A stretch of 64,000 bases of DNA from Ignisphaera sp. (GTDB lineage Archaea > Thermoproteota > Thermoprotei_A > Sulfolobales > Ignisphaeraceae), in contig JAVYNU010000002.1 of the NCBI GenBank assembly GCA_038735125.1, positions 160,816 to 224,815 of the forward strand, written 5' to 3'. Of this stretch, positions 44,591-49,147 are shown piece by piece; positions within the stretch are counted from its first letter, which is position 1, and the number at the start of each line of letters is the position of its first letter. The translations under genes were made by a program, and so were the position numbers. Under the pieces are notes generated by a model. It was not told where the DNA came from. It saw only the letters and a list, made by a program, of their open reading frames with translations, and made no database searches.

Positions 44591-44708
44591 GCGCCCCAAG
44601 ATGGATATGGGAAATGAGCTAGCAAATCAACTCAATTGCCATTGCAAAAACAGTTATAAAAAATATAAAACTTATATACTGGAAATACGATTATTATACT
44701 GCGTGACC

Positions 44709-45478
44709 ATGCCTATGATCTGCTTCGAAAAACCTACAACATTTCCGAGTGCTGGCTATGAGCTTTCAGCCCATGTCCACATCCCGCCTCAAGGCCCAAA
44801 GAACATGGTTCTCATGCTTCACGGCTTCACAGGTTTTAAAAGCGAGGTCAACAGGCTTTTCATCGATATTGCAAGGGCTTTGTGTAAAAATGGCGTTGCT
44901 GTCTTCAGATTCGATTATAGGGGGCACGGAGATTCCCCCTAGACTTCGAGGAGTTCAGATTTGAGTATGCTGTTGAAGATGCTGAAAATGCTTTGAGGTA
45001 TATCTCAGAGGCTTACAGACCCTCAAAGATCTTTTTGATCGGATTGAGCATGGGAGGCAATATAGCTGTTAGACTAGCGAAGACCTATAGCAATAGGATC
45101 TCTGGTGCAGTCCTACTCTCACCTGGTCTCAACGGCGTTGAGCTTAGAGAGAGGATGAAGAGATCTATTGTTAAGATCGGCAACTACTACTACTTCGGCG
45201 CCTATAGACTAACCGAAGACCAGGTTGAGGAGCTTCACAGAGACAACCTCATTGAATGGGCAGACAAAATATATGTGCCAATGTTGATAATACATGCGAA
45301 AGACGATCAAGCCATACCATACACACAATCACAACAATTCTTCGAGAAGCTGGCCGCCAAAGACAAGAAACTGGTTTTATTAGAGTCAGGAGGGCATGTA
45401 TTCTCTACATATGAATCCAAGACAAGGGTTATAGAAGAGGTTGTGAATTGGGTCAAAGAAAGGGTTGGCGAAAAATAG
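44709..45478 (+). pseudogene. Alpha/beta hydrolase split by a frameshift in a C run
   Basis: ATG 44709 opens a serine-hydrolase-fold protein: M-L-H-G-F-T-G oxyanion loop and F-R-F-D-Y-R-G-H-G-D. The frame stops at TAG 44940, but the -1 frame continues from there with L-D-F-E-E-F-R and holds the nucleophile G-L-S-M-G-G, the acid in K-D-D-Q-A-I-P and the His in G-G-H-V-F, ending at 45478. The join lies at TTCCCCCTAG: one extra C would restore about 256 residues. All catalytic parts survive, so it may be a recent mutation, a sequencing error, or -1 slippage. Confidence 0.85.
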
Positions 45479-46343: not shown

Positions 46344-48164
46344 TTAGTGGATGGTTTTTGATAGGTATCTTGGATTGTCGACAGGTCTATTCAAGATTAA
46401 ACCTAGCCTATATGCTATAAACTGTATTGGAAGTGATAGTACTATTGGCGCTAGGTGTCTTGGTGTAGGGGGGATAAGAATCTTTTCAATATTTGTCATT
46501 TCGCGGAGTTTGGAATCGGTTTCAAATCCTATAGCAATGGTTGTAGAGCCTTTTTCTGATGCCATTGATATGAGTTCGTAGGTTGCTTGTAAAGCTTGTT
46601 GCTCTATAGGCATTATAAATATTGTGAAGATTCCTTGCTCAATTATTGTCTGCGACCCATGCTTAAACTCGCCTGCTTCAATACCTTCAGCGTGGATATA
46701 CGCAGTTTCTTTCAATTTTAGTGCAGCTTCTAATGCTAGCGGATATGTAATACCTCTGGAAATCACATAACCACTCCTACAACCAGCTATACTTTTAACA
46801 ATATTCCCCACCTGTACATCAACAAAACTTGTATAGCTAGCCAATTCGCTAGCAAGCCTTCTAACCTTCTCAACCATGTCACCATATTCATCTTTGCCAA
46901 TCCTATGATTCGCAACGCCAGCCTTCAATGCAAGGAGGTATAGTAGCAATAAGGTAGATGTAAACGTCTTGGTAGCTGGAATAGCCACTTCTGGACCAGC
47001 ACCAATTGGTAGGTAAAGATTCGATAGATTAGCTAATCTAGAGCCGATATAATTTGTGATGCCGAGAATTGTTGCTCCTCTTAGCTTAGCCTCGAAAACA
47101 GATGCTAGTACATCACTTGTTTCACCAGATTGTGAAATTGCTATAACAACTGTTCCAGGCTTAACACTATCTACATGGTATAGTGGGAACTCAGCAGCAC
47201 TCACAACAGTAGATGCTATTCCAGCTAATTCCGAGAGGTAGTAAGAGCCTATATTAGCCGCGTAGAGGCTAGAGCCGTTGCCTATAATAAAAACTTTTTC
47301 AGCATCTGCAACAAGCTTGGCTGCAAAAGATAGGTATTTCTCTTGAACAGAATACAAGGTTCTTAAAAGAGATTCTGGAACCTCATAAATTTCTCTAAGC
47401 ATGTGGTGTGGATACCCATCTTTATCAACATACCTGGCATCGATATCCATTTGTTTGAACTCCTTATCTACTCTATACCCCTTAGTATTCTCAACGACAA
47501 CACCATCTTCGCTGACGACAGCTATTTCACCTTCATTAAGCTTGAAATACTTTTCAGCAAGTCCATGCATAGCTCCTTTACCAGATGATACCACCACATA
47601 GTCGCTGGATACACCTATGTATAGAGGTGGCCCATGAACATAGGCTGCAATGCATCTACACCTCGAATCCAATATAGATAAGCTGTAGTATCCATTAACA
47701 TCCTTCAAACCGTTTCTAACAGCAGTTAAAATGTCCTCACCTTTGTTGAGATGCTCCTCAATGATATGTGCAACAACCTCGAAGTCGCATTTAGAAATAA
47801 CTTTGTGTTCCCTCATAATCATCTCGTCTTTCAGCATTTCATAGTTGGCTATAGCCCCGTCTCCAGCTACAGCTATTCTATTGTTGCAATCTGTGTGTGG
47901 CTGGGTATTGCTTATATGTGGCTTGCCATGTGTAGGATATCTCGTATGCCCTAGTGCAATCCATGAAGAGAGGCTACCCAGCCCATACTTGTCATACACA
48001 CCATCTATCCTCAGAACATCTTTGTATACAGCAACGCCATTGTCACCTGTTATCGCTATTCCGCTACCATTAAAGCCTCTGTACTCAAGAAGCTTAAGAC
48101 CCTTAGAGACAACGTCAATAACATTGAGTTTCTTAGGGGATAGTGCAGCGAATATTCCACCCAA
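46344..48164 (-). CDS. glmS: GlmS-like glucosamine-6-phosphate synthase with degenerate glutaminase site
   Basis: A 606-residue protein co-linear with glucosamine-6-phosphate synthase: an N-terminal class II glutaminase domain and two SIS isomerase domains. The isomerase half keeps I-G-N-G-S-S, S-Q-S-G-E-T, E-A-A-L-K-L-K-E, E-F-K-H-G and the C-terminal N-P-R-Y-L-S-K. The glutaminase half keeps H-T-R-Y-P-T-H-G and the Asp of C-D-F-E-V, but begins M-G-G-I-F where M-C-G-I is required, and has G-D-G-A-I-A-N-Y for H-N-G-I-I-E-N: nucleophile Cys1 and oxyanion Asn98 are both lost. The start is TTG 48164; no upstream reading restores a Cys. Confidence 0.9.
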   Translation of the reverse strand: MGGIFAALSPKKLNVIDVVSKGLKLLEYRGFNGSGIAITGDNGVAVYKDVLRIDGVYDKYGLGSLSSWIALGHTRYPTHGKPHISNTQPHTDCNNRIAVAGDGAIANYEMLKDEMIMREHKVISKCDFEVVAHIIEEHLNKGEDILTAVRNGLKDVNGYYSLSILDSRCRCIAAYVHGPPLYIGVSSDYVVVSSGKGAMHGLAEKYFKLNEGEIAVVSEDGVVVENTKGYRVDKEFKQMDIDARYVDKDGYPHHMLREIYEVPESLLRTLYSVQEKYLSFAAKLVADAEKVFIIGNGSSLYAANIGSYYLSELAGIASTVVSAAEFPLYHVDSVKPGTVVIAISQSGETSDVLASVFEAKLRGATILGITNYIGSRLANLSNLYLPIGAGPEVAIPATKTFTSTLLLLYLLALKAGVANHRIGKDEYGDMVEKVRRLASELASYTSFVDVQVGNIVKSIAGCRSGYVISRGITYPLALEAALKLKETAYIHAEGIEAGEFKHGSQTIIEQGIFTIFIMPIEQQALQATYELISMASEKGSTTIAIGFETDSKLREMTNIEKILIPPTPRHLAPIVLSLPIQFIAYRLGLILNRPVDNPRYLSKTIH

Positions 48165-48209: not shown

Positions 48210-48884
48210 TCATTGGTAAACAAATAGATAGCCTCCTTCATATTTTATAACACCTAGAGATATGCCAAGCCTAATCAAGTTTAAAACACTTTCTCTATCC
48301 ATATTCAACTTTTTAGAGACATATTTGAGGAAATCAGAGGCTTTCACAGATCCAAAGTTTCTAACAATAACATCCAACTCATCAATGATGTATTGGAGAT
48401 CTTGGGGAATCTCGTACTCGACAACCCTGCAGTTAGCAATCTTTAGAAATGTGTAAAACTCTTCTCTGCCACCTGAAATCCTCGATAATCTGTATAGATT
48501 AGGCCCGCAGCCCCTCACACTATAAACAGCATAAGACATTTTCTCAAACCCTGGTCTCTTCCCAAAGCGACTTGTAATACATATCACGTTTGTGCCCTCA
48601 TTACCAAAACAATTACTAGCTTCATCAACAATTTTTATGACATGATATTGTCTGGTAGAGGATATGCAAAGACCATTTCTAATCTCGCTATCGCCACATA
48701 GATCTACAACCACATGTTCTGAGATGTTGGAACCCCCAAAATCTATGCATGCACCAATACCTCTATTATCCAAACCCTCTAAAAGGTGTATAGAGAAAGC
48801 TATGTTAAAGTTGCTGTAAGGTGATATAACAACAACCCTACCACTTCTGATTATGTCAGATAAAATGTTGTTTAATCTAGCCAT
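48210..48884 (-). CDS. Uncharacterised protein with C-terminal winged helix
   Basis: About 224 residues from ATG 48884. The N-terminal 120 residues have a Rossmann/RecA-like alternation (G-R-V-V-V-I-S-P-Y-S-N-F-N-I-A near 16-30, where a P-loop would sit but no GKT is present). The last 70 residues (F-L-K-Y-V-S-K-K-L-N-M-D-R-E-S-V, I-K-Y-E-G-G-Y-L-F) form a winged helix. Ten Cys are unusual for the size. A TTTTTAAT box about 40 bases upstream supports this start; the open frame to 48971 would overlap Cren7. It lies between glmS-like and cren7. Confidence 0.65.
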   Translation of the reverse strand: MARLNNILSDIIRSGRVVVISPYSNFNIAFSIHLLEGLDNRGIGACIDFGGSNISEHVVVDLCGDSEIRNGLCISSTRQYHVIKIVDEASNCFGNEGTNVICITSRFGKRPGFEKMSYAVYSVRGCGPNLYRLSRISGGREEFYTFLKIANCRVVEYEIPQDLQYIIDELDVIVRNFGSVKASDFLKYVSKKLNMDRESVLNLIRLGISLGVIKYEGGYLFVYQ

Positions 48885-48961
48885 CCTCAAGGAGGTATCC
48901 TTAAAGAATATTTGTAGAACGTTATTAAAAAATATTTGCTTTTCTAAATCTAAATTTTGTT

Positions 48962-49147
48962 TTAGCTGCATTCTGGGTAGTCGTCTGGTACTTTTGCTCT
49001 GAAGTATTTTCCTGATGCTGGATCTTGGAATAGGCCTATCTTAACCCCTTTCCTACCCTTTGGAGACAGGCTCCAGACCTTCTTTGGAACAAGCTCCTTC
49101 TCTCCACCCTCAGGCATCTTAACCTTAACAGGCTTTGTACAGGCCAT
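48962..49147 (-). CDS. cren7: Chromatin protein Cren7
   Basis: A 61-residue SH3-like chromatin protein that binds the DNA minor groove in crenarchaea. [44 protein letters not shown] and D-D-Y-P follow the family almost throughout. GGTGG lies a few bases before the ATG. It is the clearest lineage marker in the window. Confidence 0.97.

Follow-up and report, generated by a model that had tools for sequence, protein, structure and literature searches.

The GlmS-like gene of the window (the whole stretch of 64,000 nucleotides of Ignisphaera sp. DNA analyzed here) probably encodes an amino-sugar-6-phosphate deaminase, derived from a GlmS in which the glutaminase half has died and yet been kept. 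We assign this reading a probability of about 70%; the most likely reaction is the conversion of GlcN-6-P to Fru-6-P and NH3. Deamination is the best reading because all tested parts of the ammonia-delivery path other than its amino-acid clamp have been lost, the sugar-phosphate site is intact, and members of the subfamily are linked to NagA. According to this model, an ancient duplication of GlmS would have given rise to the paralogue lineage; NagA would deacetylate first, and the paralogue would then act in amino-sugar breakdown. As the sequence shows, the SIS half keeps all residues that serve the aldose-ketose and Schiff-base steps, and the glutaminase half, devoid of nucleophile, oxyanion Asn and channel gate, is unable to feed ammonia. 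The gene context suggests that the SIS reaction is run toward ammonia release. The dead half is probably a docking or dimer element, perhaps an amino-acid-binding regulatory domain.

Conserved residues and phylogeny of the paralogues

The minus-strand open reading frame of 606 aa begins with TTG and has the N-terminus M-G-G-I-F. It is GlmS-like from end to end and matches the GlmS model TIGR01135 with 465.7 bits, above the cut-off of 418.05; its closest relative of solved structure is E. coli GlmS (E about 1e-75). Pfam recognizes the two SIS domains strongly, whereas the match to the degenerate glutaminase domain is weak (GATase_6/GATase_7, 40 bits). In E. coli numbering, Cys1 is replaced by Gly (residue 2) and Asn98 by Asp (residue 102), with Gly99 retained. 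The isomerase residues Ser303, Ser347, Gln348, Ser349, Glu481, Lys485, Glu488, His504 and Lys603, each of them invariant in all 44 paralogues compared, are present in the window protein, as is Thr352. The initial annotation, made from the letters of the window, had described both substitutions and the preserved SIS site correctly. It had also stated that no Cys can be gained by an earlier start, and indeed the TTG is preceded by only eight codons after an in-frame stop; they read YSISGVRE and include no Cys.

The comparison set, drawn from the searched genomes, consists of 44 paralogues, which span the Thermoproteota, and 25 canonical archaeal GlmS. The alignment with archaeal GlmS that had been proposed as a check separates the two groups clearly: position 1 is Gly in every paralogue and Cys in all 24 canonical proteins with an N-terminus, and position 98 is Asp in 43 paralogues and Glu in one, as opposed to Asn in 25 of 25 canonical sequences. 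Furthermore, His97 is lost in all paralogues, the channel gate Trp74 is replaced throughout by Tyr, Phe or Ser, and the tails beyond Lys603 are shorter than the canonical ones. The catalytic roles of Cys1, Glu488, His504 and Lys603 in GlmS are known (PMC9272926), and Trp74 forms the ammonia channel together with the C-tail (PMC7948480). Because nucleophile, oxyanion Asn and channel gate are all lost, the glutaminase half is unable to supply ammonia, in agreement with the earlier claim that glutamine is not usable as its source. Three further residues of this half, Arg73, Asp123 and Glu125, are conserved in 44 of 44 paralogues.

In a quick phylogenetic tree, all 44 paralogues form a single clade (SH-aLRT 100); under midpoint rooting, E. 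coli GlmS and the archaeal canonical GlmS lie opposite this clade. A second, canonical GlmS, for which the initial annotation had suggested looking, is encoded in the same genome (MCGIIGF, 611 aa; G000:C7:94484-96316) and scores 701.9 bits with the GlmS subfamily model. The window protein shares about 34-35% identity with it and is thus a paralogue, not the sole GlmS of the organism. Canonical GlmS is also present in most of the paralogue genomes checked.

The dead half evolves faster than its partner: the mean pairwise identity of the paralogues is 39% in the glutaminase half versus 53% in the SIS half, compared with 53% and 52%, respectively, in canonical GlmS. Nevertheless, the dead glutaminase half is retained under purifying selection. 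Its dN/dS is 0.075-0.16 in closely related pairs from the same genus, for which dS stays below about 1; pairs of larger dS yield higher, unreliable values. A decaying domain is excluded by these close pairs.

Table 1. Features of the GlmS-like gene and its upstream neighbor (window coordinates; residue numbers of the window protein, with E. coli GlmS equivalents).
Feature	Position	Strand	Basis
GlmS-like protein of 606 aa starting at TTG; proposed to be an amino-sugar-6-phosphate deaminase, glutaminase domain inactive	46344..48164	-	sequence
Glutaminase domain of Ntn type, degenerate and without nucleophile (residues 1 to about 239); an intact fold is predicted, with pLDDT above 90	47448..48164	-	Pfam GATase_6/GATase_7, residue table, model, dN/dS
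Gly2 codon replacing catalytic Cys1; Gly in 44/44 orthologues	48159..48161	-	residue table
Asp102 codon replacing oxyanion Asn98; orthologues 43/44 Asp, 1 Glu	47859..47861	-	residue table
Tyr76 codon replacing channel-gate Trp74; Trp in 0/44 orthologues	47937..47939	-	residue table; role of Trp74, PMC7948480
Arg75 codon (E. coli Arg73), invariant in 44/44	47940..47942	-	residue table
Asp127 codon (E. coli Asp123), invariant in 44/44	47784..47786	-	residue table
Two SIS domains, residues 243-606, sugar-phosphate active site complete	46344..47438	-	Pfam SIS x2; residue table; Foldseek TM 0.9 to GlmS isomerase domain
Invariant phosphate-binding motif Ser344-Gln345-Ser346 (E. coli 347-349)	47127..47135	-	residue table
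Pro396 codon (E. coli Ala400); all 44 orthologues have Pro and all 25 canonical proteins Ala; subfamily signature	46977..46979	-	residue table
Codon of the invariant isomerase base Glu486 (Glu488 in E. coli)	46707..46709	-	residue table; role, PMC9272926
His502 codon (E. coli His504), invariant	46659..46661	-	residue table; role, PMC9272926
Codon of the invariant Schiff-base residue Lys603 (also Lys603 in E. coli); shortened tail follows	46356..46358	-	residue table; role, PMC9272926
Gene without Pfam family, upstream, gap 45 bp; may be a partner or regulator	48210..48971	-	neighbor comparison, Pfam search

Gene neighborhood and co-occurrence with NagA

We searched 299 genomes of the phylum for NagA, and 48 of them contain a homolog over the cut-off. 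Paralogue genomes number 38 according to a match list read by hand, with identities of about 37% or more and nearly all matches starting at query residue 1. NagA over the cut-off occurs in 29 of these 38 genomes, compared with 19 of the 261 others; the corresponding Fisher p-value of 6e-20 overstates the association, because the genomes are related. The other nine paralogue genomes possess no NagA over the cut-off. Searches with the model of the classical NagB (TIGR00502) yielded no match in the 38 paralogue genomes, but NagB is found in seven of the 19 genomes that have NagA and lack the paralogue. Ten paralogue genomes contain an extra SIS protein of about 350-390 aa. In 15 genomes, NagA lies only 23-307 bp from the paralogue, in divergent, convergent or co-directional arrangement, which indicates that the linkage was formed or rearranged more than once.

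In the window genome itself, NagA is located on a separate contig (C4), unlinked to the paralogue. Its open frame (L134:8790-9806, minus strand) begins near LTLLPGFVDTHTHG, so that about 48 N-terminal residues are missing; since no single open frame continues upstream, either the gene itself is disrupted or its assembly is wrong. A search of this genome for kinases gave one ROK kinase and no GlcNAc kinase of the BadF type.

Among the 33 loci compared (the window, L007-L011 and L102-L128), the GlcNAc-6-P deacetylase NagA is the commonest shared neighbor (13 loci), and both NagA neighbors tested directly pass the TIGR00221 cut-off. Genes of a mannose-class PTS are found in three loci of Thermofilaceae type (L114, L115, L116): L115 combines EI, HPr, EIIA, EIIB and a fused EIIC-IID with NagA, while no NagA occurs in the stretch of L116 that was read. 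In L107 and L125, a GlcNAc-kinase-like (NagK-like) gene adjoins either the paralogue or the NagA that accompanies it; L124 encodes a GH84 N-acetylglucosaminidase, and in L105, L141 and L151 GH38 and GH116 genes are close to one of the two, NagA or paralogue. The GH38 protein of L105 was identified as an alpha-mannosidase and has a homologue in L104; in both loci, a gene for a sedolisin-like (pro-kumamolisin) protease is found near the paralogue and NagA.

In L102, the paralogue and NagA stand beside a peptide-type ABC transporter. Homologous ABC components are present in the Sulfolobaceae locus L151, where a bare SIS protein of 324 aa, whose gene overlaps nagA, occupies the place of the paralogue. 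This protein scores 158 bits with the NagB-II model and 128 bits with that of GlmD, both under the cut-off. The ABC and NagA proteins of the two loci are 29-43% identical, which suggests a shared gene kit; common descent of one operon is not proven by such values. Two consecutive genes for GH116-type glycosidases (L151:2263-6671) also adjoin nagA and the bare SIS protein.

The family of the gene directly upstream (48210-48971, minus strand) neighbors the GlmS-like gene in eight Ignisphaera loci, with identities of 25-43%. It is weakly conserved overall and best in its C-terminal stretch, and a Pfam search with the product of the window gene gave no match. On the plus strand of the window, an alpha/beta-hydrolase-like gene is apparently split into two open reading frames (44601-44942 and 44993-45478): the first ends at FRYDYRGHGDSP, and the second begins inside the same fold, which has the look of a single interrupted gene.

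Predicted structure and the retained glutaminase half

An AlphaFold2 model of the paralogue, based on an alignment with 38 orthologues, is of high confidence (pLDDT 94, pTM 0.93). In Foldseek comparisons, its SIS half superimposes well on the isomerase domain of GlmS, with a TM of about 0.9 and 2-3 A. Over the complete chain, however, the TM with full-length GlmS is just 0.54-0.57. As a control, the canonical GlmS of the same genome was modeled likewise; although this model is less confident (pTM 0.85), it agrees with the active E. coli and human GlmS at a TM of 0.86-0.92. Hence, the N-terminal half of the paralogue is predicted to dock otherwise than in GlmS.

In GlmS, Arg73 and Asp123 hold the backbone of glutamine, the former as ligand of the carboxylate and the latter as ligand of the amino group. 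The conservation of this pair is compatible with a regulatory N-domain, which the initial annotation had considered in connection with an isomerase. A tentative extension, which we regard as possible though not probable, is that the dead half acts as a sensor: re-docked, it would bind glutamine or glutamate with the Arg73/Asp123 clamp and switch the release of ammonia from amino sugars according to nitrogen supply. The structure 3ooj (E. coli GlmS C1A with bound glutamate) shows that the pocket can hold an amino acid without Cys1. Our canonical model compares with 3ooj at a TM of about 0.54; this structure thus departs from the active arrangement, and domain placement in the GlmS family is mobile.

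Alternative functions and related enzymes

Of the three functions that had been offered initially, deamination is favored by the gene neighborhood, the co-occurrence with NagA, the absence of NagB and the replacement by a bare SIS protein. Points against it are the nine paralogue genomes without NagA over the cut-off, the extra SIS protein in ten, the unlinked and apparently broken NagA of the window genome and its missing BadF-type kinase, the two Ignisphaera assemblies described below, and the GlmD and NagB-II scores of the paralogue, which are not above those of canonical GlmS. The second option, a GlcN-6-P synthase that aminates fructose-6-phosphate with free ammonia in its SIS half, as its main role or as reversal of the deaminase, keeps some standing, but we consider it unlikely. 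Every residue of the synthase site is retained, and two near-complete Ignisphaera assemblies (G004, 99%; G011, 97%) contain the paralogue and an archaeal GlmU, with no canonical GlmS detected; their GlcN-6-P might be supplied by the paralogue or by NagA salvage. However, canonical GlmS coexists with the paralogue in most of the genomes checked, the linked genes (NagA, PTS, GlcNAc kinase, glycosidases) are all catabolic, draft assemblies may miss genes, and salvage by NagA could account for the GlcN-6-P of G011. The third option, a plain sugar-phosphate isomerase resembling phosphoglucose isomerase, would draw on a side activity of the SIS half, which the isolated isomerase half of GlmS reportedly has (a reference given in PMC7948480). 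The linkage to NagA and the replacement by a bare SIS protein of deaminase kind make it very improbable, and an open reading frame of the window genome (G000:C1:106683) looks like a bifunctional PGI/PMI.

All or some members could instead be AgaS-like and convert galactosamine 6-phosphate to tagatose 6-phosphate as deaminase/isomerase. The PTS subunits of Thermofilaceae type score about equally with GalNAc/GalN models and with general mannose-class models, and the substrates of AgaA and NagA overlap (PMC3668189). Yet Aga-specific cut-offs are never reached, whereas that of NagA is passed, neighbors elsewhere are a GlcNAc-kinase-like protein and GH84, and no tagatose-bisphosphate aldolase was recognized among the listed neighbors; a preference for galactosamine is therefore rather improbable. 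A degenerate or misread gene, resulting from decay or from a sequencing error, is hardly credible at all. Other genes of the assembly look frame-broken (window 44601-45478; the NagA in L134), but here the frame is intact, the dead domain has the low dN/dS given above, and the same change from Cys1 to Gly in 44 of 44 orthologues is due neither to chance nor to sequencing error. An assembly error or a missed upstream start with Cys is excluded by the same count.

The proposed deaminase can be set beside several known enzymes. With GlmS (EC 2.6.1.16, TIGR01135), it shares the domain architecture, the SIS site including Glu488, His504 and Lys603, and the Arg73/Asp123 glutamine clamp; it differs in the lack of Cys1, Asn98 and Trp74, in the shorter tail after Lys603, in Pro for Ala400, and in its separate clade. 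The GlcN-6-P deaminase GlmD of the archaeon Thermococcus, like AgaS of E. coli, is related to the isomerase half of GlmS and has no glutaminase half (PMC3668189). GlmD (NF041128) shares the proposed reaction, the SIS fold and the catalytic residues with the paralogue, which differs by possessing a glutaminase half, as seen in Pfam and in the confident model. The bacterial SIS-type deaminases NagB-II (NF046059) and AgaS share the proposed reaction, the SIS fold, the linkage to NagA or AgaA and sometimes a mannose-class PTS, but they lack the N-terminal glutaminase-type domain of the paralogue. Classical NagB takes the same pathway step and shows a complementary distribution in NagA-bearing genomes.

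Membership in the families of GlmD, NagB-II and NagB was also considered and rejected. The window protein scores 67.4 bits with NF041128, compared with a cut-off of 580 that is reached in none of 57 genomes, and 116.5 bits with NF046059 (cut-off 430); classical NagB is an unrelated sequence model without a match. A literature search, which covered few subscription journals, returned no paper on Cys-less archaeal GlmS paralogues and no measured activity.

TIGR01135, the NCBIfam equivalog model of GlmS, accepts eight of nine members tested, i.e. the window protein and seven of eight others, and automatic annotation would therefore name these paralogues GlmS. If the deaminase reading is true, many NagA-bearing crenarchaea finish the breakdown of amino sugars with a protein to which databases would assign the opposite, synthetic function; for Sulfolobales, Desulfurococcales and Thermoproteales, reconstructed nitrogen and glycan metabolism would then contain a step in the wrong direction. 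The subfamily would also be a natural example of an amidotransferase whose glutaminase half has been inactivated although selection maintains it throughout a phylum. Among relatives of the amidotransferases, beta-lactam synthetase keeps a glutaminase-type Ntn domain without glutaminase activity; it belongs to the asparagine-synthetase lineage, and its synthetase half is unrelated to the SIS half.

The GlcN-6-P 4-epimerase ST2245 of Sulfolobus tokodaii was also considered as an identity of the paralogue, but the positions seem to differ: the paralogue of L102 lies at 2.554 Mb of a genome of 2,694,756 bp, which we take to be that of S. tokodaii, and ST2245 is expected near 2.24 Mb by its gene number. 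In another genome, one contig (G286, C3) contains a pair of equal-scoring canonical GlmS matches, one on each strand (141692-143551 and 147878-149737), as well as two NagA matches that likewise score the same, as would result from an inverted duplication or a misassembly.
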